Origin: a virus
Direction: 5' to 3' (one strand)
Virus record (IMG/VR): IMGVR_UViG_3300020470_000086
Coordinates: 1-34,828 of that record
Length of the DNA stretch: 34,828 nucleotides
Shown here piece after piece: positions 2,326-20,742 of the stretch (position 1 is the first letter of the stretch; every line of letters starts with the position of its first letter). The notes beneath the pieces were generated by a model, which saw only the letters and a list, made by a program, of their open reading frames with translations, ran no database searches and was not told the origin of the DNA. A program made the translations under genes and the position numbers.

Positions 2326-3695
2326 TATACTTTAAGTCCCTCGAATTTGTTACGTGTTTCAGTGACTGGTTGAATGTCACCTGCGTCTATGATGTCATCT
2401 TGAGCTGACTGCTCACAATCATACAGCCTCATCTTCGCTCTGTCAATACCGATGACGAAACGCTTATACATTGTAGGATCATTATACCTATTCTTCAACT
2501 GCTTGACCATTATTTGTCCGAGTTGTTCCATGTCTTCTGTACTGATAAGAGCAAACATAAGGTCAGCAGTAGCGGGAAGACCGAATGACTCAGAGGTATC
2601 AGTAAGATCGACATCACTGTTAGAAAACCCACCACGAGTTGTTTGGGTCGCAGTGACAATAGGGAGGTCGAATTCAACCGCCAATCCTCTGAGTTCCTCT
2701 GCAATTGCTTTGACATAAGTATATGAATTTACTATAGTCCCTTTATATCTAGCGGACGCACATATATTAAGGTAGTCTACGAAGATAACATCGGGACTGA
2801 ATCCTTTCTTCATAGATAACTCATTCAAGAGTGCCTTGAAATGACCCACATGTGCAGATGCTGTAGGGTATTCCTTGATAACTAACTTACCTTGTGTCTT
2901 CTTCTTTAATCGAAGCAACTTGGAGGTGTACTTTTCTTTGGTAAGGAGGGGGTCACTGAGTTGCTGGATCGGGATGTCAAGAAGGTTGGCATCAATTCGC
3001 TCTGCAATTTTCTCCTCTGCCATTTCCATTGTAATATAGAGAACGTTCCGTCCTTGGAGCAACATGGAGCTAGCGACGTGGCACATGAATAAAGATTTGC
3101 CGACACCAGTACCAGCAAGCGCGACGTTAAGAGTCTTATTAGGTAAACCACCTTTGGTAATCTTGTTAAAATATTCGAGGTCGAAGGGAACTTTCTCTTC
3201 TCTTCTGTGATAGAAGTCATACCTGTCATCAGCATCCTGTATGTAATCGTGTCCAACATGATCATCGAAACACACACCAAGAGCCTCGGACATGATACTT
3301 GGTATCGCATCCTTTGTGCGTGTCTTGTCCTGCCCATCAGCAATCTTTACAGACTCCATCAGCGCAAGATATATAGCTCGTTCTTTGCACCACTTTTCAG
3401 TGGTCTCAACTAACCAGTCATCGTTGTATTGGTCTCTATCTAAATCATCGAGAAACTTTTCAATGTCTTTATAGACATCTTCTGTTATGTCTCTACGTTT
3501 CTCCACCTCAATCTTCAGAGCATTAGGCTCAGGGGTGGTCTCAAAGTTATTGACATATTCAGATAGTGTATCAAACAATACACTATGAGTATGCATATCA
3601 AAATACTCACTCTTAATGAAAGGCATAACCTTTCTACAGTAACTTTCGTTGAGGATAAGTTTACTGAGTGCTATCTCTTCTATCTTTAAACTCAT
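2325..3695 (-). CDS. 41: Replicative DNA helicase gp41 (DnaB type)
   Basis: This 456-residue protein is the hexameric helicase that unwinds DNA 5' to 3' at the fork and works with the primase. The RecA-like C-terminal half carries a Walker A motif (GTGVGKS, residues 195-201). Around residue 300 there is a hydrophobic strand ending in aspartate (VIFVDYLN), matching Walker B, followed by a TQTTR segment typical of the DnaB family. The N-terminal half is the helical collar domain. Length agrees with T4 gp41 (about 475). It overlaps the upstream oxygenase gene by four bases (ATGA) and the downstream MazG gene by one base. It lies in one transcription unit with the polymerase and UvsX. Confidence 0.95.
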   Translation of the reverse strand: MSLKIEEIALSKLILNESYCRKVMPFIKSEYFDMHTHSVLFDTLSEYVNNFETTPEPNALKIEVEKRRDITEDVYKDIEKFLDDLDRDQYNDDWLVETTEKWCKERAIYLALMESVKIADGQDKTRTKDAIPSIMSEALGVCFDDHVGHDYIQDADDRYDFYHRREEKVPFDLEYFNKITKGGLPNKTLNVALAGTGVGKSLFMCHVASSMLLQGRNVLYITMEMAEEKIAERIDANLLDIPIQQLSDPLLTKEKYTSKLLRLKKKTQGKLVIKEYPTASAHVGHFKALLNELSMKKGFSPDVIFVDYLNICASARYKGTIVNSYTYVKAIAEELRGLAVEFDLPIVTATQTTRGGFSNSDVDLTDTSESFGLPATADLMFALISTEDMEQLGQIMVKQLKNRYNDPTMYKRFVIGIDRAKMRLYDCEQSAQDDIIDAGDIQPVTETRNKFEGLKV

Positions 3696-4255
3696 TGATA
3701 ATGCAGATACGTGGTTATCATATAGCTATCGTTGATTGGCTTCTCAAATGAATGGGGATACTGCCACGACGATGGGCATAGCACTACCCTACCACGTTTA
3801 GGTTGAATTGTGTAGTCTAAGATTGGAAATCTTAACTCACCACCCTCTACTACATCATTTAGAAAGACGAAGTATGATATGAATCTTCTAGCAGACTGGT
3901 AGTCTCCTACATCTATATGACGTAAGAAGAAATCCCTATTCCTAGCATACTTAAACATCTTGACCTGCTCAAGTGAGTTTAACTTGGGCCAAAATGGTTC
4001 GCAGTCAAGGTCTTTCATGTACCTTTCACCACATCCCTTCACAGCATATAACATCTGTGTATGGATGACAGTCCAGTCTTTCTTGTTGTTGGTCTCTGTC
4101 TCTTCCGTGATATTAAGCATGGAGAATTGACAAAAGTCTTTGACCTCTTGTCTAGTCACCACCTCAGTATCATGCTCGAATAAATCTATGGCATTACGAC
4201 ATAGATTTAGGTCTAAGACATCATCATAGACCTTGATGAAGTCCTTAAGTTCCAT
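3692..4255 (-). CDS. 2-oxoglutarate/Fe(II) oxygenase-like protein (prolyl-4-hydroxylase type)
   Basis: The start was chosen at the ATG at 4255 (187 residues) rather than the frame's first ATG at 4282, because only the former has a Shine-Dalgarno sequence (AAAGGA, about 8 bases upstream). The double-stranded beta-helix signature is present: an HxD pair (H113, D115), a Gly-Gly-Glu-Leu-Arg-Phe strand about 25 residues later, and a distal histidine (H168, in a Tyr-Pro-His context) after a PKRGRVV strand. The basic residue that usually binds 2-oxoglutarate about ten positions after the distal histidine is not obvious. Such enzymes hydroxylate proteins, nucleic acids or small molecules; the substrate is unknown. 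The gene sits between uvsX and gp41, overlapping both, and is one of seven related genes in the window. Confidence 0.8.
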
Positions 4256-5252
4256 AAGAGAATTCCTTTCTGGCACACTCATCTAAAGCTTGGAGGATTT
4301 CGGACGAGAAGTATTTATCGGGGTCAGCAAGAATCTGTTTAGGATAAACAGAACTGCCACACACTTCAATGCGGTTTCCCTTTCGCTCAAATACTCCATA
4401 TTTTTCACCCAGTTCCAGTAGTCCGTAATAGCGGTCAAGTCCACGCTCGTCATAAAATAATCTAACAGCAACTTGGTTATTCTCCTTGGTTAATCGAGAC
4501 TTAGCAGTCTTAGCCTTAACTATGTTACCCACTACATCCTTACCATCTTTCTCCTTAGACTTGCTAAGGTAGATGATGGATGAAGCAGCATACTTAAGAC
4601 CACTACCACCTCCCATCTCTTTGGTGGGCATGTATGCACCAACCACATCATATGTATGGTTAGTAACTATTAGAGGAACGTTTGCTTTACCTAGTTTGAG
4701 GGTTAGCACACGAAAGATAGACTTAACTACCTGAGCACGTGTCATATCACGTGTTTCCTTCCCTTGCTCTGAGTCTTCCATCTCCTTAGAGGTGGATAGC
4801 ATACCCAGAGAATCTAAGACCATGAGCATAGGCTTCTTATCCTTCTGCTCAAGGTATTTGTCAAGAATCTTAATGCTTTGTGTCCTGAATTCTTGTACTG
4901 TATTGACTGGTACCAAAACCATACGGTTGGAATCAATACCTCTGGACTCAATTAACTCTCTGCTTATCGCACTTTCAGACTCAAAATAAATAACCCCACC
5001 ATCAGGATTAGATTCGAGGAAATACTGTACGAGAGAAAGGCAGAAAAAAGTTTTACCTGTTGACGACTCGCCTGCAAGAGCAGTGATTTTGTTGCCTGGA
5101 ACTCCTCCGTAGATGGATCCACTGACAAGTGCATTAAAGATGTACGAGCCTGTGTCGATAAAACCACTTGTGTCACCAGCAGCAACACCATCAGCAACGA
5201 CACTAGCGTATTCATTATCAATCTCTTTAACTATATCTTTTAAAAAACTCAC
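4245..5252 (-). CDS. uvsX: RecA-like recombinase UvsX
   Basis: UvsX forms the presynaptic filament that drives strand exchange and recombination-dependent replication, loaded by UvsY. The Walker A motif (GESSTGKT) is at residues 61-68, and a hydrophobic strand ending in aspartate (LMVLDS) around residue 145 provides Walker B. The frame is open to an ATG at 5294, but a GTG at 5252 is preferred. It is preceded by GGAGG ten bases upstream, and its GTGA overlaps the gp43 stop. The protein then begins [10 protein letters not shown], the usual family N-terminus, and is 335 residues long. The downstream oxygenase start overlaps its last codons. Confidence 0.93.
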
Positions 5253-7738
5253 GACCAAAGTGCCTCCAATGTATGTTTCTTCTCTGCTTCCCATCCAATC
5301 GTATCGAGGATAGCTTTCAGAGGTGCTAGGAAACTCTTCTCGAATTGTAGGTCATAGTCAATGCTGTTGTCAAGTCCAAACTCTGACGGAAGAGTCTGGA
5401 AGAATGAAATAATATTCTCATTGATACGATTCGGTGTCCTTAAATGTAAATACTTAATCTTCTCACCCTCCTGGATAATAGGATACTTATGCTGTAGTTT
5501 ATTCTTCTTGATATGGAAGTTGTACAACAACGCACCTCTTACATGCATGGGACATCCCTTGCCATAAATCGTAACACTTGATGTATTCTTCTGTATATTA
5601 TTACAACCACGAGGGAATGCTACTTCCTCTGCTGGCATCTCCTCAAACTTCTGACGGAAGTCCTTGATGTATTTCTGAGTATTCTCTTCACTACCTGTCA
5701 TAATAACATTGAGTGCTTCCTTAATAGCAGTACGACATGGTGCAGGTGTAGAAGACTTAACTGCTTCTATACCCATCATCTTTAGCTTAGGTTTCTCATA
5801 CTGGACACCCTCACTATTCCATACGTTAAGAATATATCTCTTCTTAGCAGTCCAGATGCCCTTGTTAGCGATGTTCTCTCGCTTCATGACCATCTTCTGC
5901 TCGTATGCATTTACATAGGTTGCCATTTCTTCATAAGCACTCGCAATATAGCGATCAAGTTCCACATCACACACCTTCTTAAGGAACCTAAGTGTACTCT
6001 GATCGTCCTTCTCTCCACTGGGGAATACAGCTTGTACCAGAGGACCAAGATGGATGTAAATACTATCAGTGTCACTAGCAATAACATAATCTTCTCCGTC
6101 AGTTTTTAATACATTGTTTAAATACTTATTAACCTTCTCCTCTATCCATCTGATTGAGACTTGTCCTGATAGAGTGATTGCTTCAGCGTTCGCAAGATTG
6201 TAATACCTGAAGTACTGGTTACCGATAGCACCGTAGGCAGAGTTAAGTTGGATCTTTCTTGCCATCTGGATGTTATTAAACTTAGCAATGTCTCGCTTGA
6301 GTTTTGCGGTTGGTTTTCTTTCATTCTCTTGCTTCGCTGCTAACATTTTCTTTTTATATATTGTCCTCTCATCGTAGATGCGTTGCATCATCTGAGGGAG
6401 GAATCCGTGGATGTCCTTGCGGTATTGTGCTCCGTTGGCACACACAGCATAGTCCCCTCCGATGGAAACAGTTTGGTTGAGCAGTCCTTCAACTGTGGCA
6501 CTTGGATGTCGTCTCTCAACAAGGGTTTCGGGACTGATGTTGTACTGCATGATGAGGTGAGGATACAGACTGTTAAGGTCGAAACTCGCAACCCATTCAT
6601 ACATACCTGGCTTAGGCTCTTTGACATACGCTCCTGCATACTTATCATCCTTTTTAGTAGAGATTCTGGGTGGTACTACAATATTTCTCTTACCTAGGTC
6701 ATTATAGATGAGGGTATCCCACATCCTAACCTGAGAATATACATCCTCAAAATTAACCTTGGCATCATATGACATAGTGACTGCCAACTCAATCAGTTTC
6801 ATCTTGTCTTCCAGTTGGTCAACAAGATTCACGTCATGGATGTTGTATTCTACAAACCTATCCCAATCATTAGTATAGAAGTCTTTAAAATTCTCATACT
6901 GTGAGTGGTCTAACTTAGCATCATCCAACTCAACTGTAGCAATATGGTCTAGTCTATATGATTCTTGATTAGTATAGGTAAACTTTTTGTACAGGTCAAG
7001 ATAGTCGAGGATATTAACACCTAACAAATTATATGCTAGGTTCCTACGACCTTGAATAACAATCTCTCTATCTCTTACAATCTTCCAAGGTGACAAAGAC
7101 TTCTTCCACTTCTCACCTAACACCCTCTCTACCCTGCGACAGATATAAGGTATGTCATATAGGTTACAGTTCCATCCTGTAATAATGTCAGGAGTATTCT
7201 GCACCCACCATTGAATGAAGTCTTCGAGCATCTCATGCTCCTTCCAGAAGACACGATACTCATGCTCACCTTGGAACTCACGAGTACCCCATGTAATAAT
7301 CTTCTTAGTATTAAAGTCTTTAATAGTAATGCATAGCATCTCCTCAGCAGATGCTTCTACATCAGGGAATCCATTCTCACATGCTACCTCAATGTCAATC
7401 GTATAGATTTTCATCTTGGACATGTCATAATCTATCTCATCAGGAAACTTCTGTCCTATATGTTGATAGATGAATCTCTCATACCCATGCACCTCTAGTC
7501 CAGCAGCATTCTCATACTGCTTAATGAAGTCACGTGCCTCTCTAGCACCATCAAACACCTTTGGATATGCTTTCCTACCATCCAAGGTCTTATACCTAGA
7601 TGGTCTCTGCTGTGCTTGAGGCACAAGATATAATACTGGTTGGGATTTCTCCCTATACTGGACCTGAACACCATCCTCATACCCACGATAGAGAATATCA
7701 TCCCCTAATAGGCACAGGTTGGTATAGAACTGACTCAT
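5249..7738 (-). CDS. 43: Family B DNA polymerase gp43
   Basis: This is the phage replicative polymerase with a 3'-5' proofreading exonuclease. Exonuclease motifs are Exo I (D115-I-E117), Exo II around N190-D195 and Exo III (Y298 with D302). Polymerase motifs are A (FDLNSLYP, 386-393), B (K495 through Tyr-Gly 502-503) and C (D556-T-D558). At 829 residues it is close to T4 gp43 (898) and appears intact. Its ATG overlaps the stop of the upstream small gene (AAATGA), and its stop overlaps the uvsX GTG start. It works with clamp gp45, loader gp44/62 and helicase gp41, all encoded in this window. Confidence 0.97.
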
Positions 7739-8001
7739 TTAGCAGCAATCCTCTCGTTGTATGCTTCTATAACAGCAGGGGCAGGCTCTAGTATAGTCAA
7801 GACATCAGTGCTTGTCAAGAAGAGGAATCTGTCTGACACATGCTTAGGATATTCAATGAGGTCTATCTTAATGCCACTGCCATTACCACCCTTAACTAGG
7901 TACACATCTTCAATCAGAAGACTTGGTTCCTGATCCATCTCCGAGACCTTCCCCAAAATATACATCTCTGGGTGGGACTTGAGTATTATCAACTTCAGCA
8001 T
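7735..8001 (-). CDS. Small beta-barrel-like conserved phage protein upstream of gp43
   Basis: The protein is 88 residues, starting at the ATG at 8001. A GTG six bases earlier is possible, but GGAG lies five bases before the ATG. It is rich in beta-branched residues and can be aligned by eye with two other proteins of the window (7910-8368 and 29216-29653). All have an N-terminal strand, a short Lys/Ser/Gly/Glu turn, a second strand, a long loop, a further strand, and a C-terminal segment with proline then an aromatic-rich helix. The layout resembles Lsm-like small barrels. This is a shape comparison, not a recognised family. The first 92 bases overlap the upstream gene in another frame. Confidence 0.7.
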   Translation of the reverse strand: MLKLIILKSHPEMYILGKVSEMDQEPSLLIEDVYLVKGGNGSGIKIDLIEYPKHVSDRFLFLTSTDVLTILEPAPAVIEAYNERIAAK

Positions 8002-8368
8002 TGTCACTCCGTAATTGTTTGAATTTTTCTAGGGCATTGTGGTACCCCTCCATCACATTCTGATGAGGGTCGGACATTGATACAACTGAGTACAGTGTGA
8101 CAATGTTACGTCCGTTAGTAAGTGGAGCCCAAGGAAAGAATTGTAACCTAAGGTCACTCAATTGGTCAAGTGGATCAGGTGGTTCCTCATCCTGATACTG
8201 GTCAGTCTGTACGTCATCAAACATATTTGATGATGACTGAAGCAACGTTACAGTAAAAGCATTGTCAAACTCATACGCAAGTGCTCTGGTGTCAGACTCG
8301 TTTGCACGTATCTCTTTAACGTCAGCTACTACGTCCTCGCCGTTTTGCATTCTTGCGATTTTTATCAT
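7910..8368 (-). CDS. Conserved phage protein of unknown function, first gene of the polymerase unit
   Basis: The 152-residue protein begins MIKIARMQNGEDVVADVKEI, a strand-turn-strand start with a Gly-Glu-Asp turn. It has an acidic Pro/Asp/Gln-rich middle (60-75) and a Phe/Pro/Trp strand near residues 82-88. I cannot assign a function; the opening resembles Lsm-like barrel proteins. The ATG at 8368 is preceded by GGAGGG six bases upstream and, 17 bases before it, by the -10 of a sigma70-like promoter. Its last 30 codons are overprinted by the next gene. The C-terminal tail (about 122-152) is Gly/Asp/Ser-rich and probably disordered. Confidence 0.75.
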   Translation of the reverse strand: MIKIARMQNGEDVVADVKEIRANESDTRALAYEFDNAFTVTLLQSSSNMFDDVQTDQYQDEEPPDPLDQLSDLRLQFFPWAPLTNGRNIVTLYSVVSMSDPHQNVMEGYHNALEKFKQLRSDNAEVDNTQVPPRDVYFGEGLGDGSGTKSSD

Positions 8369-8561
8369 TAGTACCCTCCATCAGGTTATAATAAGTATAC
8401 CGTACCATGTCAACAAATGCACGTCGTGCTGTGACATTTCTCTCATCAGCTATGGTGTGAACCATTTGCATAAACTCATCCACATACTCAGGTGGTAAGT
8501 CTACAGTGAGTGTATCTGATTTTTCTGTGTATCCAGTACACAGATTAACATACATGTTCAT
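8322..8561 (-). CDS. Small hypothetical protein
   Basis: The start at 8561 (79 residues, MNMYVNLCTGYTEKSD) is preferred over the open frame to 8609. A GGAG lies five to six bases upstream, and the earlier part runs through the terminator at 8571-8597. The protein has a short beta start, a helical centre with a VDEFMQMVHTIADERN stretch and a strongly basic C-terminus (Lys/Arg-rich, last 14 residues). The family is not recognised; the basic tail may bind nucleic acid. Its 3' end contains the sigma70-like promoter of the next gene and overlaps that gene by 47 bases. Confidence 0.7.
   Translation of the reverse strand: MNMYVNLCTGYTEKSDTLTVDLPPEYVDEFMQMVHTIADERNVTARRAFVDMVRYTYYNLMEGTNDKNRKNAKRRGRSS
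8385..8413 (-). promoter_or_regulatory. Sigma70-like promoter for the gp43-uvsX-gp41 unit
   Basis: On the minus strand a perfect -35 (TTGACA, 8413-8408) and a near-perfect -10 (TATAAC, 8390-8385) are separated by exactly 17 bases. The following gene starts at 8368 with a GGAGGG ribosome site between. The promoter is embedded in the 3' end of the preceding gene. It would allow host RNA polymerase to transcribe the replication genes down to the terminator at 1443-1467. Confidence 0.7.
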
Positions 8562-8570
8562 AACAACTCC

Positions 8571-8597
8571 AAATAAAAAAGACTCCCTAGGAGTCTT
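8571..8597 (-). terminator. Rho-independent terminator after a small membrane protein gene
   Basis: On the minus strand an 8-bp perfect stem (8590-8597 with 8579-8586) encloses a three-base loop that is itself the TAG stop of the upstream gene. It is followed by TTTTATTT. It lies just before the ribosome site of the gene starting at 8561, separating the Hsp20 group from the replication unit. Confidence 0.75.
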
Positions 8598-8951: not shown

Positions 8952-8973
8952 TATGGTTGTGCAAGTATACTAT

Positions 8974-9444: not shown

Positions 9445-9503
9445 GATAGTAGCTCCTCCTTTGAGCGAGTTTGTATTGTGTGGACCCTTTCGGCATCCAC
9501 ATA

Positions 9504-9511: not shown

Positions 9512-9563
9512 CCACATCGGCCACACACTGTCAGTGGGGGTACCCGTAAAATGAGTAAATATG

Positions 9564-9571: not shown

Positions 9572-9596
9572 AAGTACTTATTTTAGGTCGTAATAC

Positions 9597-10121
9597 ATGA
9601 AAAAAGCAATATTGCTTTTTGGAATGCTTTTGATGAGTGGTACGACTGCACGTGCCGACATTCACCACCGTATGACAACGAGTGCTGCTTTGCAAGTAGA
9701 CGCAGCTCAAACTTCAGTCACTAGAGCTGGGAATACTTTTAGTATATCAGGTAACAATGTTACCACAACTGTAACACCCTCTGGTGGGTCTGCTGCTGCA
9801 AGCCTCGGCGGTATATCTGCTATGTCTAACGCAGGTGTTGCTACATTTACTGTGCCAGATGCTACACAAACGACAGCTGGAAATGCATTTAGCTTCACAA
9901 CTAGCCTGACTACAGGTGACGCTATAGTAACTACTGCTCCTGCTACTGGTGCTGTATTAGCATACTCTAATCAGTTCTCATCCGCTGCTGGATCTGCTGG
10001 TGACCTTGCTGGTCAAGTTACGAGTGCTCATGGTTTTGCTACTGGTGATGCTGCTCCTACCGCTGGTGGTGCAGGTACTACAGTAACAACACAATTCGTA
10101 TCTGAACTCACAGTAAGATAG
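9597..10121 (+). CDS. Predicted secreted protein rich in Ala, Thr, Ser and Gly
   Basis: The 174-residue protein begins with a good Sec signal peptide (MKKAILLFGM core, probable cleavage after ARA near residue 20). The mature part is low-complexity: many Ala, Thr, Gly, Ser and Val residues in alternating patterns suggest an all-beta secreted or surface protein. It ends with the strand-like TTQFVSELTVR. No cysteine is visible in the mature part. It is the first of three consecutive plus-strand genes, all predicted to be exported, in an otherwise minus-strand genome. I recall similar proteins in other cyanophages, but their function is not known to me. A weak ribosome site (TTTAGG) lies nine bases upstream. 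Confidence 0.8.
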   Translation: MKKAILLFGMLLMSGTTARADIHHRMTTSAALQVDAAQTSVTRAGNTFSISGNNVTTTVTPSGGSAAASLGGISAMSNAGVATFTVPDATQTTAGNAFSFTTSLTTGDAIVTTAPATGAVLAYSNQFSSAAGSAGDLAGQVTSAHGFATGDAAPTAGGAGTTVTTQFVSELTVR

Positions 10122-10136
10122 TGATATATAAGGAAG

Positions 10137-10619
10137 ATGAAGAAGAGGATTGTCCTATATGCGACTGCTGTGGTATGTGCAAGTGTCGGTGCTGCACCTG
10201 CCCTGGCGGTCCCAGTGGTCCCCAACTTTCAACAGGGATCAATGACGAGCCATACGGAGACTGAAAGTACGATAACGGAAACAATAAATTCAATTGACAT
10301 GAGAACAGGATGGGAATACTCAGTAACTGGGGTAGGGGTTTCAAACAACAACGAACCGTTGAATCCTCCCGTGACTACATCAACAGTAACAGTGAATCCA
10401 AGCGTCGGATCAGGAGAAGCAGCCATAACAGGAAGCGTGACATCCTCCTTCGACAATTTAAACTTCGCAAACCAGAACAACTTTACGATAACAACTCCAG
10501 GAGAGGCATTTCAATTCACACAAATGTATCAAGGACCAGGGGTCACCAACCAGACCCTAATACAAAGAGTCACCACCGTAAAGTCAGTGACAGACACAAC
10601 AAGTACGTTTACCCAGTAA
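10137..10619 (+). CDS. Predicted secreted beta-rich protein
   Basis: This 160-residue protein has a Sec signal peptide (MKKR basic start, hydrophobic core, probable cleavage after APALA near residue 24). The mature sequence is Thr/Ser/Asn-rich and lacks cysteine. It includes a VPNFQQGSM segment right after the signal, as in a family I remember from other cyanophages. AAGGA lies just before the ATG, 15 bases after the previous gene. A different frame is open across most of this gene from 10310 on; its product there is highly basic and looks like a shadow. The stop TAA (10617-10619) forms TAATT with the next gene. Confidence 0.8.
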   Translation: MKKRIVLYATAVVCASVGAAPALAVPVVPNFQQGSMTSHTETESTITETINSIDMRTGWEYSVTGVGVSNNNEPLNPPVTTSTVTVNPSVGSGEAAITGSVTSSFDNLNFANQNNFTITTPGEAFQFTQMYQGPGVTNQTLIQRVTTVKSVTDTTSTFTQ

Positions 10620-11668
10620 TTGCAGCAGGTTTAATACTTAATAGTTTGGTACCATTAAAAGCATTAGCGAACCAAGGGGTTGGTGGAGTAAGTGCAACAG
10701 CGAACCCGATCGCAAATAGTTCTGGCTCAGTCACGAACCAGGCAATACAAGTATTACAAGGTCCATACATAACCAACACCTATGGTGGTGGTGTCCAGTG
10801 TCAGGGTAGTACCTTTAACTTGACACCTTATGTACAATTCGCTGACTCAAGGAAGGATCCTTGGGTAGATTATTATGATGAACCACAATATAATATGACT
10901 GACGTAACTGGTCGTACTACTAAACAGACCGTTACTGTTAAAAACTATCCTTGGGAAGACTGGTATGACGACAGGACTAAGGATGATGGCACCAGATGGT
11001 TCCCAGATGGAGAAGATATACAAATAGAAATAGATGTAGATGGTCCTGATGGTGTGCCTGATGCAGTACAGAATGGTAGCATGGATCCTACATGGCACAA
11101 ACCAGTAAGGACTGACATGTCTGCCAACCAGTCATTCAATGCTGGTATATCAGCGACACTATCAATCCCATTAAATAGAAAATTAGTAAGGCAATGTCAT
11201 GAGGCTGCACAAGCACAGAATGATATGCAGAGACAACTCATTGCCAACAAGCGGCTAGACTTTGAGATAGCTCGTCTCAAAAATTGTGGTGAGCTCAAGA
11301 AGGCAGGTATATTTTTCCATCCAGCATCACCATACCACAGTGTATGTGCTGATGTAGTAGTGACAAACCCAGGTGGGAAACTTGTACCACATACACATGA
11401 CTTAAGTCAATCTACTTCTTCTTCTCCTGCTCCTTCTTCTTCTCAGCCTTCACCTTCTTCTGGTGATTCTTCGCAAACGGTATCGGATTCAACCCCTTCT
11501 TCAGACGATACTCATTCGTCTTCTTCTCAGCCTCAGTCAAACGATAGGGGTTTCTTCCAAGGATTGCGTTTACCTTGGTCAAAGCCTGCTTTATCGCAGG
11601 ACGAAAAACTCGAAGAAGCAAATCAGCCAGCGGCTTTGCTAGGAGGGCCGATGCACCTGCCACAGTAG
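10619..11668 (+). CDS. Predicted secreted protein with atypical start and antisense-overlapping tail
   Basis: The frame is open from 10310, but protein-like sequence begins near 10600 with a signal-peptide-like stretch (IAAGLILNSLVPLKALA, then Asn-Gln). No ATG, GTG or TTG exists in this frame between 10310 and a TTG at 10646, which lies inside that stretch. An ATT at 10619 overlaps the previous stop as TAATT and is given as the provisional start. The conserved-looking core includes YGGGVQCQG, an Asp/Trp/Tyr-rich middle, a calcium-loop-like Asp-rich segment (DVDGPDGVPD) and IANKRLDFEIARLKNCG. It continues to VCADVVVTNPGGKLVPHTHD. The last 85 codons are Ser/Pro-rich and antisense to the gene ending at 11412, so the natural C-terminus may be earlier. 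Function unknown. Confidence 0.65.
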   Translation: MAAGLILNSLVPLKALANQGVGGVSATANPIANSSGSVTNQAIQVLQGPYITNTYGGGVQCQGSTFNLTPYVQFADSRKDPWVDYYDEPQYNMTDVTGRTTKQTVTVKNYPWEDWYDDRTKDDGTRWFPDGEDIQIEIDVDGPDGVPDAVQNGSMDPTWHKPVRTDMSANQSFNAGISATLSIPLNRKLVRQCHEAAQAQNDMQRQLIANKRLDFEIARLKNCGELKKAGIFFHPASPYHSVCADVVVTNPGGKLVPHTHDLSQSTSSSPAPSSSQPSPSSGDSSQTVSDSTPSSDDTHSSSSQPQSNDRGFFQGLRLPWSKPALSQDEKLEEANQPAALLGGPMHLPQ

Positions 11669-12374: not shown

Positions 12375-12630
12375 TACCAGGTACCTGCTGACGATAATTC
12401 TGATTAGGAACAGGTGTACCTGTTACAGGTCCAGTCTTAGTCGGCCATGCCTCCAAGAGTGCTGCCTTAACTTCTTCTCTGACAATCTGTCTTAGCTCGG
12501 TTGCCTCTGCTTCAAGTCTCTTCTGAGGACCACCTTGCATATTATCGATAACTTGACCGCCACCTACGACACCACCAGTGCCTACAACAGCGACTGCGGT
12601 ACCATAGGTTGCTAATTTTTGTACGTCCAT
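12358..12630 (-). CDS. Small membrane-associated protein
   Basis: The start at ATG 12630 (90 residues) overlaps the oxygenase stop as TAATG, which decides against the longer frame to 12687. The N-terminus has a Gly/Val/Ala-rich hydrophobic segment (about residues 8-27). A helical charged region (38-60) and a Pro/Thr/Asn-rich tail follow. The family is not recognised. The gene is sandwiched between the oxygenase and the larger membrane-associated protein with overlaps on both sides. Confidence 0.7.
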   Translation of the reverse strand: MDVQKLATYGTAVAVVGTGGVVGGGQVIDNMQGGPQKRLEAEATELRQIVREEVKAALLEAWPTKTGPVTGTPVPNQNYRQQVPGNVRNK

Positions 12631-13124
12631 TAGTTGTAAGTTGCTACTAATACTACTCTTCGATCCCTTAGAGGGAATCGATGGCAATGCTCACCTTCAA
12701 ATAATATTACATCATCTTCTATTGGTTCATGCACTTGACCTTCACAATGTGTATCACCACCTGCATTAGTTAGGTACACTAGCAAGTTGTAATGTGGGAA
12801 GTCATGGTCTACATGTGGTGCAGTATTCTGACTATTATAATACCAAGGATGAACTGCGTTAGCATTCAGTCTCAGTATACAATTAACAGCAAGATTATTG
12901 TAATCAATTATTTGATTCATTACAACATTCGCAAGGTCCATAAACTGAGAAGTGACCGCAGGATATCTACGGTCACTATAAGGTCTCTCTAAAAATACAT
13001 GCGAATAGAAATCGAAATCATCCTTAGGGTTCCTCTCAATGAACCATGGGAAATCATCCGATAACACAAGAGATTTGAAATCATCATACTCTTGTGTCAG
13101 TGGATTACCCAGTAGTTCTATCAT
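12630..13124 (-). CDS. 2-oxoglutarate/Fe(II) oxygenase-like protein
   Basis: The 164-residue protein shows the oxygenase core: HxD at H104/D106, an HYNLLVYLTN strand, a Gly-Gly-Asp-Thr turn and a DDVILFEG strand. The distal histidine is probably H146, with R156 ten residues later to bind 2-oxoglutarate. The signature is complete. The start overlaps the previous stop as TGATG. Substrate unknown; its neighbours are small membrane proteins. This gene stands apart from the oxygenase cluster at 14937-18345. Confidence 0.85.
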   Translation of the reverse strand: MIELLGNPLTQEYDDFKSLVLSDDFPWFIERNPKDDFDFYSHVFLERPYSDRRYPAVTSQFMDLANVVMNQIIDYNNLAVNCILRLNANAVHPWYYNSQNTAPHVDHDFPHYNLLVYLTNAGGDTHCEGQVHEPIEDDVILFEGEHCHRFPLRDRRVVLVATYN

Positions 13125-13381: not shown

Positions 13382-13393
13382 TGTTATTTACCT

Positions 13394-13684
13394 TTAATAT
13401 AAATTCTCTTCTTGCTCAGTTAAGATAGTGCAATCAGAGGTTGGATATGCTACACATGTTAGCACAAAACCAGCCTCAAGTTGATCTTCGTCGAGGAAAC
13501 TTTGATCTTCTTGATTTACTGTACCTGATTCAATCTTACCAGCACATGTAGAGCATGCACCAGCACGACAAGAGAATGGCACATCAATACCTTCTTCCTC
13601 AGCCTTGTCTAAGATATACTCATCTGCACCACACTCAAATGAATGTGTTTCTGATGGAGTCTTGAGAGTAATCGTGTATGACAT
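13394..13684 (-). CDS. petF: Plant-type 2Fe-2S ferredoxin
   Basis: The start is ATG 13684 (96 residues, [10 protein letters not shown]). The longer open frame to 13795 runs back into the previous gene. The four cluster ligands are C39, C44, C47 and C77, the exact CxxxxCxxC...C pattern of photosynthetic-type ferredoxins, within an [11 protein letters not shown] context. Length equals that of cyanobacterial PetF. Ferredoxin carries electrons from photosystem I. In a cyanophage it could supply reductant to the PcyA-like bilin reductase encoded at 32755-33414, which uses reduced ferredoxin. The gene lies among membrane-protein genes, eight bases from the previous stop. Confidence 0.95.
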
Positions 13685-13691
13685 AAGAAAC

Positions 13692-14138
13692 TTATGCAGT
13701 GGGTGGTTTATTTGATGGTGCTGCGCTTCCGATAACCAATGGTGCTTGCTCAATTCTAATTGTCTGAGCAGGTGCTGCTTGAGTTGCTTTCTCAATTAGT
13801 TTTTCCATGTCTGCCTTAGAGACTTGACCTGGAGATCCACCATTCATTTTCATAGTGCCGTCACCTTTCTTTGAAGCAGTCTGAATTCCGAAGCTAGCTA
13901 AAACTCCCGTAAAAACTGAAGCTATAAAAGTCGGATCAATTTTCTGCTGTGGTATGCCTGGGATCGCAACATAATTTAATGTAAGTATCCCGCCTGACCA
14001 TACCAAGACTCCAAGACGCACAAATGTGCTGAAGATTGCAGCAGCATCTTCTTCATCTGGAAGTACCTTGTCCTTTAGTTTACCAAGAGGTCCCTTCTTT
14101 GTCAAGTCCTCTTCGTTTTTCTTTTCTTCCTCTGCCAC
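13692..14138 (-). CDS. Membrane protein conserved in T4-like cyanophages, function unknown
   Basis: The protein has 148 residues from a GTG start at 14138 with a strong GGAGG five bases upstream, formed by the end of regA. It has a charged Lys/Glu N-terminus (1-30), then two hydrophobic segments (about 35-60, containing [17 protein letters not shown], and 70-85, [15 protein letters not shown]). A Pro/Ala-rich tail ends the protein. I remember closely similar proteins in cyanophages. It is probably inserted in the host membrane. It lies between regA and the ferredoxin gene. Confidence 0.75.
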
Positions 14139-14555: not shown

Positions 14556-14953
14556 TTTCTTCCTCCAGTATTTAATTTTAATTTAATAACATCGAGTTGC
14601 TCTTTAGTCAGTATTCTCATTGCCTGCTGAGCTTTCTCATTATTGTAACCATAATATTGTTTCACAAGGTCAAGGTCACAGTCTTTGGACTTCTTATCCC
14701 AAGGAGAAAATCGCTTTGATTTTCTAACACTATGTATAAAATATTGGTACTGTAAATCGTTATCTAAATGTGAAGAAGCATTCATTTCATTAGCATGCAT
14801 CACTGTATCAATGAATGATGATAAACATTTATTGATGACATATGCTGGATACTTTTTCATTGCTCTCTCATCACCTGAGAGGTCACCTTGCTTCAAATTA
14901 ATACTGTTAAGGTAATCCTTTAACGGATACTCATGTTTAGATGTCGTAGCCAT
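14552..14953 (-). CDS. 62: Clamp-loader small subunit gp62
   Basis: gp62 pairs with gp44 to load clamp gp45. Start ATG 14953 (133 residues) is chosen because GAGG precedes it by about five bases; an open frame extends to 15001. Recognition rests on the segment YPLKDYLNSIN, a helical YVINKCLSSF stretch, and location directly upstream of regA as in T4. T4 gp62 is 187 residues, so this is a shorter cyanophage-type version. Its start overlaps the oxygenase-like gene upstream, and gp44 lies more than 4 kb away. Confidence 0.85.
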   Translation of the reverse strand: MATTSKHEYPLKDYLNSINLKQGDLSGDERAMKKYPAYVINKCLSSFIDTVMHANEMNASSHLDNDLQYQYFIHSVRKSKRFSPWDKKSKDCDLDLVKQYYGYNNEKAQQAMRILTKEQLDVIKLKLNTGGRK

Positions 14954-15584
14954 AGCACCTCTTGGAAGCAATACTTTCATTAACGTGGAAGTTTTGGACA
15001 AAGAAAACCTGTGTCAGTCGGTCTTCTCCCTTCATGTATCTATTTGTATGACCATGCCACTCCATAGCATCGTATACAATGCATCTATTATACACGTTCT
15101 TGACCTCTACGGTAGTCTCAAACTGTGCATTGTGTGTTTCGTATGAACAATTCTCATCATGCTCTTCTGGTATAAGTCTGTAGAGAGATGTACCACTACC
15201 AGGTGAAGGGTCGGGGTTGAGGTATACTACACCAGCACAGAAACATCCTGTATCATTGTGTATCAAGCCACGATTTAATGGGTTACTCTCATCACCTAGA
15301 CTAGGTATCTTCTGAAACTGTGATAGCACTGTGCCAGAGAATCCTTGAGTAACATCTGTAAAGAGAGTAAGAAACTTCAGACTCATGTCCTCAAACAGAT
15401 TCTGATCAATCTCATTGAGAGGCACAGTCCTTGTCCCAGGATAATGACCCTCAGTCTTATAATCTAAACTCAATGCAAACTCTCTTATACCATCTGGATC
15501 CCTATAAAATTTATCAAAAACTATTAAAGGGACATTCATGACTCCACCCTTAATCCCGACCTCTTGGTCTAGGTTGTCATGCAT
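14937..15584 (-). CDS. 2-oxoglutarate/Fe(II) oxygenase-like protein (DUF6445-like)
   Basis: Start ATG 15584 (215 residues) has GGAGG six bases upstream and overlaps the methylase stop; an internal ATG at 15539 also has a GGAG but very close. An HxD pair is present (H109, D111), followed by CAGVVYLNPDPSPGSGTSLYR. The later EWHGHTNRY segment (H177/H179) is followed by an arginine (R189). This matches the oxygenase fold; the layout resembles the DUF6445 family as I remember it. Substrate unknown. It separates the Dam-type methylase from gp62. Confidence 0.7.
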   Translation of the reverse strand: MHDNLDQEVGIKGGVMNVPLIVFDKFYRDPDGIREFALSLDYKTEGHYPGTRTVPLNEIDQNLFEDMSLKFLTLFTDVTQGFSGTVLSQFQKIPSLGDESNPLNRGLIHNDTGCFCAGVVYLNPDPSPGSGTSLYRLIPEEHDENCSYETHNAQFETTVEVKNVYNRCIVYDAMEWHGHTNRYMKGEDRLTQVFFVQNFHVNESIASKRCYGYDI

Positions 15585-16416
15585 ACAATGCCTCCAAGGG
15601 TGTACGGTTGATATCATAGTTGCATACTAGCAACTCTTTCTTCTGCTTATTGTCTGCCCTATGCTTCATACCATAGGTGATCTTAAATTCTTCTTGATGG
15701 AAGTCACCATATGCTTCCTTCAAAGCATCAGAGTTATTATATGTCACAAACCAGTCATGCTTACAGTCTCTACAGTGCTGTATAAATTCATCATGGTTGA
15801 ATGACTTATGCAACTCAGCATTACTTCCATATAGATAGACACCTATCTGATAAGGTGGGTCTAAGTATATGAATGTGCCATCACCAGGTGCATGCATGAC
15901 CTCAGAGTAATCATAATTAGTGATTCTCCATCCTTGAATGATGTCAGAGATATCTTTTAGATATGTTGCACCACGTGTTGTAAAATTCTGTCTTGATGCA
16001 GTAGCACTGAAGGAACTATTCTCTGTGAGTCCTGAATAGGAACACTTGTTAAGCACCCAGAATAATACTGCTCTATTAAAGTCATCCTCTTCAGTCTTTA
16101 TCTCTTCCTTAGCAGACTTAAACAACTCCTTAGCCCTATCCTCTGTGCTATGGTCTTGCTTGGTCTTTACCAATTCATCTGACAATTCATCACCATTATC
16201 TCTCAACTGCACCCAGAAGTTATACAAGTATTCATACTTGTCATTGATCCATACAGGGATGTCAGGATTCTTCTGTGCAAATAGTAACGCAACTGACCCA
16301 CCACCAATGAATGGTTCACGATACTCTTTTAAATCTGATGGGAATCTAGGAATAAAATCCTTTGCTACCCTAGACTTACCGCCTGGATAACGTAGTGGTG
16401 TCTTCAAAAATTTCAT
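15577..16416 (-). CDS. dam: DNA adenine N6-methyltransferase, Dam type
   Basis: The enzyme transfers a methyl group from S-adenosylmethionine to adenine in DNA. The 279-residue protein starts with the typical LRYPGGKSR and has motif I as EPFIGGGSV (34-42) and catalytic motif IV DPPY (186-189). A conserved LNKCSYSGL segment lies at about 122-130. This D12-class layout and length match T4 Dam (259 residues). The target is probably a short site such as GATC, which I cannot confirm. It likely protects phage DNA from restriction or regulates packaging. It lies in the accessory block between gp44 and gp62, with four-base overlaps. Confidence 0.92.
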   Translation of the reverse strand: MKFLKTPLRYPGGKSRVAKDFIPRFPSDLKEYREPFIGGGSVALLFAQKNPDIPVWINDKYEYLYNFWVQLRDNGDELSDELVKTKQDHSTEDRAKELFKSAKEEIKTEEDDFNRAVLFWVLNKCSYSGLTENSSFSATASRQNFTTRGATYLKDISDIIQGWRITNYDYSEVMHAPGDGTFIYLDPPYQIGVYLYGSNAELHKSFNHDEFIQHCRDCKHDWFVTYNNSDALKEAYGDFHQEEFKITYGMKHRADNKQKKELLVCNYDINRTPLEALYA

Positions 16417-17072
16417 AATACGTTCAAGTTAAGTTGTGGCATGCCGTGTGGACCTTGATTGATTTTTCCAGATGGAAACGCATTAAAACTCATAGTCCAT
16501 CTATCATAATCCTCTAGTTGTCTACCAGAGAAATGTTTTAACCAAGAAGGAAATAGAATTAACTTCCCTGGTTTGGCCTCATACATCTCATTGATGCCTA
16601 GATTCCAACCATCCATCTTCATCTTCTCCTCTTCCCATATATCCATGACATTATATGTCCTAGGTATAACTGGGTCATCAAAGACCGTAGGAGCACCGTC
16701 AGTAAGGTAGTATACAGCACTAAGATATGCCATAGGATGACGATGTAATGGATGTCCCCACCCACTCTTACGTGGTGCGTGGTTGAACCAGCATAGACTA
16801 ATATCTAATTTTTCGCAATCAAGTTTAAACTTTTCTTTATACTGCTCCAGACAGTCCTCAAAGAATAATACAATCCTATCTACACATGGCACGTCACGAT
16901 GCTTGTGTATATCAGGTCTACTGGTGACAACACCCTCAGGAAAATTATCCTGGCCTGCTGGAAAGTCTCTTGCCCAAGTTGTAAAGTCTTTTACCCACTG
17001 CTCATCATGACCGATGTCAGTATACTCCATGATTATGGTAGGGAAATAATGTAGTTCCTTCTCTTCAATCAT
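16413..17072 (-). CDS. Putative 2OG-Fe(II) oxygenase, tandem copy 1 (PF13759-like)
   Basis: This 219-residue protein belongs to the group whose signature is HxHP followed by a YLSAVYYLT strand, Phe-Asp-Asp-Pro, then LILFPSWLKH and a closing Arg...SFNAFPSG. Here the residues are H110, H112, H180 and R191. The usual acidic residue of an HxD triad is replaced by histidine in the same spacing. The ATG overlaps the previous gene's stop (ATGA). It is one of three neighbouring paralogues, all of similar length and C-terminal motif (GxINQG or GDINMG), clearly from duplication. Substrate unknown. Confidence 0.82.
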   Translation of the reverse strand: MIEEKELHYFPTIIMEYTDIGHDEQWVKDFTTWARDFPAGQDNFPEGVVTSRPDIHKHRDVPCVDRIVLFFEDCLEQYKEKFKLDCEKLDISLCWFNHAPRKSGWGHPLHRHPMAYLSAVYYLTDGAPTVFDDPVIPRTYNVMDIWEEEKMKMDGWNLGINEMYEAKPGKLILFPSWLKHFSGRQLEDYDRWTMSFNAFPSGKINQGPHGMPQLNLNVL

Positions 17073-17749
17073 TTCTTATAGTCTCTTAGTGGTAATGGTC
17101 CTAGAATATCCCATCCTCTTACTTTTGGTACATTAACCATTGGACGTTGCCATCCACCCATATTGATATCGCCCTGAGGAAATGTATTAAATGCAATGGT
17201 AAACCTCTGCACATCATCATTGTTAGCAAGACTAGCATGAATTAACCAACTAGGAAAGATGATTAACCCTCCAGGTCCACCGTGATAATGCCATCTACAC
17301 TCAGCACCAGGACCACCGTCAAGATGTAACGATGCCCACTCTCTCCTGTCTATAGGGTCCAAGAAAATAGTAGGTGCTCCAGGTGTCATGTAATAGATGC
17401 CACTCAACCACGACATAGGATGCCTATGAGCGTCATGATGATGACCTGAGCAGGGGTCTGCTCTGTTACACCATGCTTTATTAACCATTATTCTATCACA
17501 ACACCAGCCATTGTCAAAATGTAAGGTGTCTATACACTGTTGAAACCACTGCATGAGTGGTCTAAACTCTGGGTCCGTCTGTATATCATCAGTGGTGCCA
17601 ACACCACCTCTACCATCCCAGTCTAGGTTAAAATTTCTATACTCCTGCTTACGAGTAACCTCAAGGGCTTGATTATTCAATTCCTCAGGTGCTTTAAAAC
17701 TATAGCACCTTACTGGGAATACATTCTCAGTAGTATATTTCTGTCTCAT
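17069..17749 (-). CDS. Putative 2OG-Fe(II) oxygenase, tandem copy 2 (PF13759-like)
   Basis: This 226-residue paralogue has H108 and H110 in the HRHPMSWLSGIYY segment, preceded by an unusual histidine run (103-105). The distal H171 is in LIIFPSWLIH, with R182 and an AFNTFPQGDINMGG closing strand. Extra histidines and a Gly-rich loop (145-160) distinguish it from its neighbours. It overlaps both adjacent genes by four bases. The fold assignment is good; activity and substrate are unknown. Confidence 0.82.
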   Translation of the reverse strand: MRQKYTTENVFPVRCYSFKAPEELNNQALEVTRKQEYRNFNLDWDGRGGVGTTDDIQTDPEFRPLMQWFQQCIDTLHFDNGWCCDRIMVNKAWCNRADPCSGHHHDAHRHPMSWLSGIYYMTPGAPTIFLDPIDRREWASLHLDGGPGAECRWHYHGGPGGLIIFPSWLIHASLANNDDVQRFTIAFNTFPQGDINMGGWQRPMVNVPKVRGWDILGPLPLRDYKK

Positions 17750-18345
17750 ATTACATCTAGGTTGGCAATGCCTTGATTAATCTTCCCATATGGAAGTGCA
17801 TTAAAGCTTATACTATATCTATCAGACTCGGCCATTTCAGTATCATGGACTAACCATGAAGGGAAGATAAGTAACGTGCCTGGAGTTGGAGTATACTTAA
17901 CTATCTGTGGACCATTCTCTAGTATACCAGTCTCTGTAATCTTTGGCAACGTATGTATATCCCACTGTCCTAATGACCTCTGCTGTAGAGGATCATAGAA
18001 CACTAAAGGAGCACCGTCAGTCAGAAAATAGACGGCACTCCAATAGGAATTAGCATGTCTGTGTGCTTCTTGTCTTGTACCAGGTCGATAACGGTTAGCC
18101 CACATAGATGTTATCTTAAACCCATCACAGTCAAAGCATTTGTCCTGATGTATATCATATAGACACTGCTCAAACCACGTGACTAGGGGTCTGAATCTCT
18201 CATCATGGTGTAACTCTGGACCTGCATTAAGAATACCAGTCTCCCTCTCTTTAGTAGGGAGTTTATTAATCACACGTATCCAGTCATGGTTTAGATCACT
18301 AGACCATTCATATATTTCTACTGGATATATGCTATTGGTCTTCAC
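17746..18345 (-). CDS. Putative 2OG-Fe(II) oxygenase, tandem copy 3 (PF13759-like)
   Basis: The 199-residue paralogue has H95 and H97 in AHRHANSYWSAVYFLT, distal H167 in LLIFPSWLVH and R176 before a SFNALPYGKINQG close. The proline after HxH is Ala here. It shares the GAPLVFYDP strand with its neighbours. The start overlaps the preceding 134-residue gene by 14 bases. It is the most N-terminally shortened of the three copies. Confidence 0.82.
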   Translation of the reverse strand: MKTNSIYPVEIYEWSSDLNHDWIRVINKLPTKERETGILNAGPELHHDERFRPLVTWFEQCLYDIHQDKCFDCDGFKITSMWANRYRPGTRQEAHRHANSYWSAVYFLTDGAPLVFYDPLQQRSLGQWDIHTLPKITETGILENGPQIVKYTPTPGTLLIFPSWLVHDTEMAESDRYSISFNALPYGKINQGIANLDVI

Positions 18346-18736
18346 TCTTCTTTCTCCGTGGGACTTTAATGGTCCATGCTGGTGCTACAAGGTCAACCAT
18401 CTCAAACTCTTGCTTAGCTTTCTCTCTCAACTTCGCTGCCTTCTCATAGTCTTGCAGCTCTTTCTCACGTCCTGGCTCAGGTTGTATCTCACCATAGTGA
18501 GGATCCCATATCTCAGGGTGCTCATGGTTGTCAAAGAATTCAAGGATACTACTATCAATCATATGATATAGAGTGTCCCAAGTTAGTGTCCTTCTTAGAG
18601 TTTCTGCTATGTATTCTGCTTGATTAACAGACATCTCTTGCTTAAGGAACTCACCTCTTGCCCATACTAATTCATTCAGATCTATTGTGATCTGGACATT
18701 GGTATGGACACCAGTGTTGTCATAGGGTTCCGTCAT
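18332..18736 (-). CDS. Hypothetical protein between pyrE and the oxygenase cluster
   Basis: This 134-residue soluble protein is mostly helical, with a charged centre (about 85-108, Lys/Glu/Arg-rich, possible coiled coil) and a basic C-terminus (PRRKKSEDQ). No family is recognised. The ATG overlaps the pyrE stop by four bases, consistent with a coupled gene. No catalytic motif is evident. Confidence 0.75.
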   Translation of the reverse strand: MTEPYDNTGVHTNVQITIDLNELVWARGEFLKQEMSVNQAEYIAETLRRTLTWDTLYHMIDSSILEFFDNHEHPEIWDPHYGEIQPEPGREKELQDYEKAAKLREKAKQEFEMVDLVAPAWTIKVPRRKKSEDQ

Positions 18737-19248
18737 AACAAATCGGGGATTGTATATAAACTAAAGAGTTCTAAATGTGCAGCAGCCATGTTAATGTCTG
18801 CTTCACCAGCAACCTGTCTATCGACTATGGTTGCGACTCTGTTAACAGTATAACCTGCTTCGCGTAATTTCTCAACAGCCTTTATGGCACTTTGTCCAGT
18901 GGTCACTACGTCTTCAAGAACTGTAACAAGTGCTCCTTCTACCTGAGGTGGACCCTCTATCCATGCTTGAGTGCCATGACCTTTTGGTTCCTTACGGATG
19001 ATAAAAGCATCAAGGTTACTAACCATAGCAACACCTGCTACTAAGGGGTCAGCACCTAGTGTGAGACCTGCCACTGCTACAGACCCTTCCTCTACTAGAC
19101 CTGCCAGTTGTGTTGATACCTGACGTAAACCAGCACCACTAAGTGTAACATTCTTACAGTTAACATAGTAATCTGTATCTTGTCCTGATGATAACTTAAA
19201 GTTACCTACCTTAAAGCACTTGTCCTTTAGTAGTTGAAGTAAAGTCAT
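18733..19248 (-). CDS. pyrE: Orotate phosphoribosyltransferase-like PyrE
   Basis: PyrE converts orotate and PRPP to orotidine 5'-phosphate in pyrimidine synthesis. The 171-residue protein shows the N-terminal FKLSSGQDTDYYVNCK substrate segment, the GLTLGADPLVAGV strand-turn and the RKEPKGHG catalytic loop (85-92). The PRPP-binding motif VTVLEDVVTTGQSA (108-121) follows. All features of an intact enzyme are present at slightly below usual length. Start ATG 19248 overlaps the gp44 stop (AAATGA), which is preferred to the GTG at 19260. A phage copy could raise UMP supply for DNA synthesis. Confidence 0.92.
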   Translation of the reverse strand: MTLLQLLKDKCFKVGNFKLSSGQDTDYYVNCKNVTLSGAGLRQVSTQLAGLVEEGSVAVAGLTLGADPLVAGVAMVSNLDAFIIRKEPKGHGTQAWIEGPPQVEGALVTVLEDVVTTGQSAIKAVEKLREAGYTVNRVATIVDRQVAGEADINMAAAHLELFSLYTIPDLL

Positions 19249-20189
19249 TTGAATTGGCACCTCATCATAAGTTCGGTCATGAATGCGACCATGTTAATCT
19301 CCTGGTCAACCACAAATGCTGCCTTATATTGATACTCTGAAATAATAAGGACACATTCTGGTATAGATCCAGGGTCTAGGTAAGTATAGAGGTTGTCATA
19401 TATCTTACGCATGATAACTCTAGGTTCGTTATCCATATTCTGAGCAACCCACTTCTTCATGTTGGTAAACTCTTTCTTACGGAGGAAACCTATGACCTTA
19501 TCAATGCTAAAATCATTTGATGACCCTAGTATACCTGCATCTATCTTACCAGTTGCAGCATACCTTTGCAACTCATTCAATGTCCTACGAAAATCAGGGA
19601 AATACTTCATGACCACTTCGGCCACCACCTTCTCCTCGTACTTAATCATCTCCATCTCAAGGATGACTCTGACCTTATGAAAGAATGCTTCTGCTAATTT
19701 CTTTTTATCTGCTCCTTTGACCCCAAAATCGACCACTGAACACCTGCTATGGAGGGGTTCTATGACCTTGTTTTTATAGTTACACGTGAATATGAACCTG
19801 CAGTTCTTCTGAAACTCCTCAATGGATGCCCTAAGTAAGAGCTGTACGTCTGGCGTGGTATTATCTGCTTCATCAATAATGATAACCTTGTGACGAGACT
19901 CAGATGTAAGAGAAACAGTACTAGCAAAGGTCTTTGCCTGATTGCGTACAGTGTCCAAGAATCTACCTTCATCAGACCCATTAATGACATAGTAATCTGC
20001 TCCTAATTCGTTACATAATGCCTTAGCAATGGTTGTTTTACCAACTCCTGCCGACCCTGCAAGCAAAAGGTTTGGTATCTCACCCTTGTCCAAGAATCCT
20101 TGGAATAATTTCTTAGTATTCTCAGGAAGAATGCACTCCTCCACTGTCTGTGGTCGATACTTTTCTACCCAGAGAAACAATTCAGACAT
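19245..20189 (-). CDS. 44: Clamp-loader ATPase gp44
   Basis: gp44 is the AAA+ ATPase that, with gp62, opens and loads clamp gp45. Start ATG 20189 (314 residues) gives the family N-terminus LWVEKYRP; a longer frame to 20261 lacks support. Walker A is GSAGVGKT (45-52), Walker B is VIIIDEAD around residue 103, and a Ser-Arg-Cys arginine-finger segment follows near 150. Length equals T4 gp44 (319). It overlaps the upstream oxygenase gene by eight bases. In T4 gp62 follows directly; here an accessory block of seven genes (pyrE to the gene at 14937) intervenes. Confidence 0.95.
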   Translation of the reverse strand: MSELFLWVEKYRPQTVEECILPENTKKLFQGFLDKGEIPNLLLAGSAGVGKTTIAKALCNELGADYYVINGSDEGRFLDTVRNQAKTFASTVSLTSESRHKVIIIDEADNTTPDVQLLLRASIEEFQKNCRFIFTCNYKNKVIEPLHSRCSVVDFGVKGADKKKLAEAFFHKVRVILEMEMIKYEEKVVAEVVMKYFPDFRRTLNELQRYAATGKIDAGILGSSNDFSIDKVIGFLRKKEFTNMKKWVAQNMDNEPRVIMRKIYDNLYTYLDPGSIPECVLIISEYQYKAAFVVDQEINMVAFMTELMMRCQFK

Positions 20190-20742
20190 AGTTTGAATTA
20201 ATAATGATACGATTGGGATGTTTCTTCGGAGAATGACCTGTATGTAGGTGAAGACCCTCAAAGATTAATAGTCTATTTGGTTTGGGACTTACCCTAGTCG
20301 CTTGTGTAAGCCGACCATTGTGAGGAAACTTCTCATTGAAGATGATAGTATCACCATCAGTCTCATTGAGATAATATATGGCTGCCATGTGGGGTGTTTC
20401 AAAATCCACATGAGGATGATGCACAATCCCATTAGGATTATACAACGTCATGTCTGCACGTGCTCTAACTGTTACATTTTCACACCCAATATAGTCTTGA
20501 ATCTGAAATAACAGGGGCATCACTAGGGATGACACTGGGTTAGGTGGAATCATCTTATCCTTATCAAGGATGTTATGACTAAATCCTTGCTTACCTAACT
20601 CAGGGTTACCACCCCTAGTAATATCACCCTGATAATACCAGTCCATCTCATCACTACCAAAGAAATCTAAGAGTTCTTGGTGGTAATGAGGTGTCAGGAA
20701 ATTATCTTCAAGGCTCCAGTGCGATGTAGTAGCTGAGGTCAT
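20182..20742 (-). CDS. 2-oxoglutarate/Fe(II) oxygenase-like protein between gp45 and gp44
   Basis: This 186-residue protein has a complete-looking signature: HVD at H111/D113, then MAAIYYLNETDGDTIIF, an RLLIFEGLHLH strand with H167, and R178 eleven residues later. It is close in layout to the enzyme at 12630-13124. The start overlaps gp45 by 35 bases, and the stop overlaps gp44. Its insertion between clamp and clamp-loader genes is unusual. Substrate unknown. Confidence 0.85.
   Translation of the reverse strand: MTSATTSHWSLEDNFLTPHYHQELLDFFGSDEMDWYYQGDITRGGNPELGKQGFSHNILDKDKMIPPNPVSSLVMPLLFQIQDYIGCENVTVRARADMTLYNPNGIVHHPHVDFETPHMAAIYYLNETDGDTIIFNEKFPHNGRLTQATRVSPKPNRLLIFEGLHLHTGHSPKKHPNRIIINSNYV

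Follow-up and report, generated by a model that had tools for sequence, protein, structure and literature searches.

Seven 2-oxoglutarate/Fe(II) oxygenase genes of four sequence types in the replication module of a T4-like cyanophage

Seven oxygenase genes among the replication genes

The DNA analysed here, referred to as the window, is a 34.8-kb IMG/VR fragment of a T4-like cyanophage (Kyanoviridae). The closest isolate is P-RSM6, to whose DNA polymerase the window counterpart is 75% identical. The gene order is of the Kyanoviridae type, running from the end of gp23 through uvsY, uvsW, gp55, gp47, gp46, a cobS-like gene, gp45 and gp44 to dam, and continuing after dam with gp62, regA, gp43, uvsX, gp41 and mazG. 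The segment from gp44 to gene B (see below) is repeated with 100% identity in another IMG/VR contig of 7.9 kb (L023).

Seven genes of the window, all on the minus strand and all open at the coordinates given in a preliminary description of this DNA, encode proteins of the Fe(II)/2-oxoglutarate (2OG) oxygenase class; they are termed A to G here. Gene A (3692-4255) occupies the slot between uvsX and gp41 and is of the PF13640 type (prolyl-4-hydroxylase-like), with the motif HID, a distal His and Ser at the 2OG-anchor position. Gene B (12630-13124), downstream of regA, is of the phrog_274 type and displays the pattern HVD-H-R, while C (14937-15584), between dam and gp62, is of the DUF6445/phrog_1644 type and displays HND-H-R. 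D (16413-17072), E (17069-17749) and F (17746-18345) are all of the PF13759 type with HRH-H-R, and ATGA overlaps join F to E, E to D and D to dam. Finally, G (20182-20742) lies between gp45 and gp44, is of the PF13640/phrog_274 type and carries HVD-H-R. The dam gene (15577-16416, minus strand), which adjoins C and D, encodes an N6-adenine DNA methyltransferase (PF02086, 115.8 bits), and the clamp loader gene gp44 (19245-20189, minus strand) forms the upstream border of what we call the gp44-dam slot.

The presence of seven oxygenase-like genes within 17 kb, as originally proposed, was confirmed by open reading frames, Pfam and PHROG matches, predicted folds and conserved residues. Their setting in the replication module was equally evident from the neighbouring gp41, uvsX, gp43, regA, gp62, dam, gp44 and gp45. 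Four sequence types were counted, in agreement with the earlier figure of at least three. The described metal signature (HxD or HxH, a distal His and usually a basic residue) was recovered in the alignments, where the basic residue for the 2OG carboxylate (R/K) is an Arg in every protein from B to G and only A is devoid of it. The 2-His-1-carboxylate triad, HxD/E...H, is present in A, B, C and G and absent from D, E and F.

In profile searches, which the preliminary description had recommended, five of the seven proteins exceeded the curated Pfam cut-offs (27 bits for PF13640 and likewise for PF13759): A (39.3 bits) and G (29.3 bits) with PF13640, and D (48.9), E (59.7) and F (67.4) with PF13759. 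When four 2OG profiles were run over the entire window, exactly these seven were recovered among the matches listed, and no eighth oxygenase was found among the other scanned window proteins. None of the seven matched the TET/JBP or AlkB models of Pfam (up to E = 1). The starts assigned earlier to A and C are internal ATG codons, the open frames reaching 4282 and 15617, respectively; the P-RSM6 orthologue of A starts at the same internal position.

Two families with misleading labels

Since C matched DUF6445 as its sole Pfam family (37.4 bits, reaching no 2OG model of Pfam) and B matched no Pfam family at all, these two proteins were folded with AlphaFold2. The solved structures nearest to the B model (pLDDT 95.3) in Foldseek were the Burkholderia 2OG-Fe(II) oxygenase 6n1f, AlkB, AspH and PHD2, and those nearest to the C model (pLDDT 86.9) were the P. 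putida prolyl-4-hydroxylase, PHD2 and 3bvc. Both models thus resemble solved 2OG oxygenases.

B and G are relatives by BLAST (28% identity, E 1e-5) and both fall into phrog_274. With B alone as query, a viral search yielded a single contig, 100% identical to window B. In the alignment of B/G relatives HxD-H-R is kept in all 59 sequences. In S-SSM5, P-RSM4, S-SM2, S-RIM12, Syn9, S-CAM1 and Bellamy, proteins of this family are annotated as denV or DNA endonuclease V. However, PF03013, the DenV family, was matched by none of eight denV-labelled cyanophage proteins tested, nor by B or G, whereas five of the eight matched PF13640 (two above the cut-off and three below). The B model, taken with the conserved HxD...H...R, marks phrog_274 most plausibly as a predicted 2OG-oxygenase family that has been mislabelled denV. 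With T4 endonuclease V, B and G share only the public label: B has a predicted 2OG-oxygenase fold, and the PF03013 protein of the window, a true DenV-like pyrimidine-dimer glycosylase, is encoded elsewhere (22877-23404, minus strand, 44.7 bits). The authors of the S-CREM1 study have pointed out that true pyrimidine-dimer glycosylases were previously overlooked in cyanophages.

As for C, its relatives retain HxD-H in 102 of 102 sequences and R in 101 of 102. Going by the predicted fold of C, phrog_1644 (DUF6445), known under the label 'minor coat protein', is a 2OG-oxygenase family as well, and in the S-CREM1 record a gene of the phrog_1644 type is already annotated as a 2OG oxygenase. Re-labelling of the denV and minor coat genes removes false DNA-repair and structural annotations in many reference genomes and raises the true count per genome, with a median of 10 among the matches listed (related phages, see below) as opposed to the '1 to 5' of the literature. 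By family and fold, B, C and G are most naturally taken to be Fe(II)/2OG-dependent hydroxylases.

The sequence of A matches prolyl-4-hydroxylase structures. Its aligned relatives possess the distal His in all cases and HxD/E in most, and the 2OG-anchor position is Lys or Arg in 17 of 17 when the window's own two copies are excluded. In window A this position is Ser (codon AGC in NDSY), a variant known from one contig only, and the replacement may possibly signify a loss or change of function. Provided that A still binds 2OG, it would likely carry out Fe(II)/2OG-dependent hydroxylation. The uvsX-gp41 slot is similarly occupied in P-SSM4, by T4-GC 104.

Three HxH proteins preceding dam

In the alignment of D, E and F with their relatives, HxH-H instead of HxD was found in 152 of 152 sequences, 144 of which also have R. 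The same HxH...H...R pattern appears in the alignment of 3bvc, a PF13759 protein of solved structure, which suggests that HxH is characteristic of the family rather than a mutation in this phage. With a third His where a carboxylate is usual, 2OG chemistry is less certain for these three proteins; Fe(II)/2OG hydroxylation by D, E and F nevertheless appears probable. Their known counterparts are the PF13759/TIGR02466 proteins with structures 3bvc and 2rg4, which D, E and F match by profile and with which they have HxH...H...R in common; they score below the TIGR02466 cut-off, and the bacterial 3bvc and 2rg4 proteins are themselves uncharacterised. A literature survey on PF13759 chemistry, three-histidine 2OG enzymes and DUF6445 yielded nothing relevant, with the PF13759 literature covered in part.

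A recent tandem duplication was considered as the origin of D, E and F and ruled out, as their mutual identity is only 33-36% and D and E form separate clades (96-97% SH-aLRT; support for F is weaker). From this divergence, they are taken to be old paralogues with a conserved order before dam. The order gp44-F-E-D-dam recurs in other IMG/VR contigs (L103, L104, L105 and L146/L024), and the shorter order E-D-dam in many more, including the isolate P-TIM40. The E-D pair of P-TIM40 is the nearest arrangement in an isolate, the triple having otherwise been seen only in uncultured contigs. D, E and F, with their conserved order before dam and their HxH site, offer concrete proteins amenable to testing.

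The gp44-dam slot and selection

The content of the gp44-dam slot was assessed in 80 contigs found with gp44 alone, of which 58, possibly redundant, hold the gp44-dam pair. D-type genes were present in the slot of 17 of the 58 contigs (D in 10, E-D in five and F-E-D in two), B/G-type genes in seven, and both together in none, while 34 contained no recognised 2OG gene there. The ten larger slot ORFs of the 2OG-free contigs comprised six HNH endonucleases (in five contigs), three phosphoribosyltransferases (phrog_32468; L221, L246 and L249) and one ORF without assignment. The slot is most readily understood as a site for cargo, in which 2OG genes are common. A special functional tie of the oxygenases to dam, which had been entertained, is weakened by the frequency of slots without a 2OG gene and by the other cargo found there. 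In the window itself, the slot also holds a phosphoribosyltransferase-like gene (18733-19260, minus strand), with PF00156 just below the cut-off.

In comparison with contig L146, dN/dS was 0.08-0.28 for genes C to G, with dS near saturation for E, and 0.10-0.11 for gp44, gp45 and dam. From these values, C to G are under purifying selection, somewhat looser in the case of F.

Comparison with related phages

The four profiles were run on the window and on 21 related phage genomes, with overlapping matches merged. These genomes were mostly chosen via matches to window genes and are not a random sample, and the counts are approximate, the phrog_274 profile having contributed strong matches only. 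Among the matches listed, the 21 genomes carry about 5-25 2OG-type ORFs each (median 10), and their densest 17 kb hold about 2-10, for example 10 in S-WAM1, 9 in P-RSM6, 8 in Syn9 and 7 in P-SSM2. Seven genes in 17 kb fall within this range, and the idea of an unusual density was dropped.

Nor do published data suggest the special investment inferred at first. 2OG-FeII oxygenases were reported from 14 of 16 cyanophages (Sullivan et al. 2010, PMC3037559), S-CREM1 has ten such genes (PMC9964418) and S-SCSM1 has 24 (PMC9602691); EGLN3-like proteins proved widespread in marine phages in a study based on structural annotation (PMC12774648). With multi-gene sets published since 2010, the gene set is of a known kind and ordinary for this phage family, whose members devote up to two dozen genes to 2OG oxygenases. 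The window shares with these sets the families pfam13640, pfam13759 and TIGR02466, low mutual identity and the phage family. What is less common is the placement of all seven genes within the replication module, where P-RSM6 and P-TIM40 have three annotated 2OG genes each and P-SSM4 four, and the window further differs from published sets in the D/E/F tandem triple before dam. What the window usefully adds to the published picture is a new label for two families, the count of four types, the HxH site of D, E and F and the conserved F-E-D-dam order. Runs of adjacent genes including several 2OG oxygenases were also seen in S-CREM1 (61206-64780, one gene labelled 'JmjC') and in Syn9 (39597-43144).

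Possible functions

An experimentally determined substrate for these oxygenases is reported nowhere in the cyanophage literature surveyed. The explanation that we favour, with moderate confidence, is that the seven are separate oxygenases carried as cargo among the replication genes, each hydroxylating its own substrate, most likely side chains of host or phage proteins. As the ATGA overlaps suggest, A to G would be translated together with the replication operon. Each enzyme would then hydroxylate its substrate with the help of Fe(II), O2 and 2OG from the host, releasing succinate and CO2, and prolyl side chains are an example of a likely target. Protein substrates are favoured because the nearest characterised folds are those of prolyl hydroxylases (PPHD, PHD2 and Tpa1). 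P. putida PPHD acts on EF-Tu and Tpa1 on Rps23. Prolyl hydroxylases (P. putida PPHD, human PHD2 and Bacillus P4H) resemble B and C by fold and A by sequence, and their HxD...H...basic residue pattern also occurs in B, C and G, although identity to the window proteins is about 12-15% in Foldseek alignments. By this analogy, protein hydroxylation is our best guess for the mechanism. The TM-scores are moderate (about 0.45-0.65), and HygX, PasI, PolD and AlkB are also among the fold neighbours; with small-molecule enzymes nearly as close, fold similarity cannot fix the substrate.

A single concerted programme, as one form of the phage-directed hydroxylation envisaged in the preliminary description, remains hypothetical. 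The variety of four sequence types, together with the HNH endonucleases and phosphoribosyltransferases also found in the slot, is more easily reconciled with cargo genes acting independently. Regarding the targets named in that description, DNA bases find no backing in TET/JBP or AlkB matches. Host or phage proteins stand as the likeliest substrate, by analogy with prolyl hydroxylases. A narrower version, in which D, E and F are 2OG oxygenases with a three-histidine iron site acting jointly on one replication- or translation-related target, strikes us as highly improbable.

Among the alternatives, the oxygenases might be auxiliary metabolic genes that hydroxylate small molecules, cell-surface or secondary metabolites (sugars, amino acids or lipids). 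The small-molecule oxygenases HygX, PasI and PolD near B and C in fold would agree with this, as would the cyanophage cluster of carbamoyltransferase, halogenase and 2OG oxygenase proposed to decorate a polysaccharide or make a metabolite (PMC7824862) and the Nol-like carbamoyltransferase directly after regA in P-RSM6 and S-WAM1. Yet no biosynthetic gene set adjoins the seven in the window, they are placed among replication genes and prolyl hydroxylases rank first among the structures similar to C, so that we regard a metabolic role as rather unlikely. The position in the replication module, together with the conserved D-dam adjacency and the presence of AlkB among the fold neighbours of B, could instead point to action on DNA or nucleotides, be it base modification, demethylation or repair, in concert with dam and the replisome, and a DNA-repair role has been suggested earlier (PMC3037559). 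AlkB nevertheless appears only as a generic fold neighbour, Pfam matches of the relevant kind are missing in all seven, and the slot census revealed dam mostly without a recognised 2OG gene, in a slot shared with unrelated cargo; a DNA substrate is in our opinion quite unlikely.

It has also been proposed for cyanophage oxygenases that they take part in 2OG/NtcA nitrogen signalling (PMC3037559), in which case their main role would be to drain or sense host 2OG and thereby adjust energy supply and the nitrogen-stress transcription that depends on NtcA. The window shows no significant enrichment of NtcA-type GTA-N8-TAC boxes (15 versus 10.2 +/- 3.3 in shuffles), mere consumption of 2OG needs no four sequence types, and conserved residues and fold indicate substrate oxidation, all of which makes such a main role very unlikely. 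Lastly, part of the set might be catalytically inactive and serve, for example, in binding, as could be implied by the Ser that replaces the anchoring Lys in A and by the HxH of D, E and F. But HxH is invariant in the phage relatives and occurs also in bacterial 3bvc and 2rg4, and the low dN/dS of D, E and F speaks for a site that is kept and not decaying; inactivity is the least credible of these proposals.

Other features of the window

Several further genes were observed in the window. A 2Fe-2S ferredoxin (PF00111, 81 bits) is encoded at 13394-13795 and a ferredoxin-dependent bilin reductase (PF05996, 149 bits) at 32755-33414, both on the minus strand. Between uvsW and gp55, the gene at 29216-29653 (minus strand) matches an Sm-like domain (PF16243, 71.5 bits); its positional counterparts in isolates bear the label 'methylamine utilization'. 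Finally, a plus-strand gene island of higher GC content (9597-11668) interrupts the otherwise minus-strand module. Its long ORFs 10137-10619 and 10310-11668 overlap, and the gene ends there are ambiguous.
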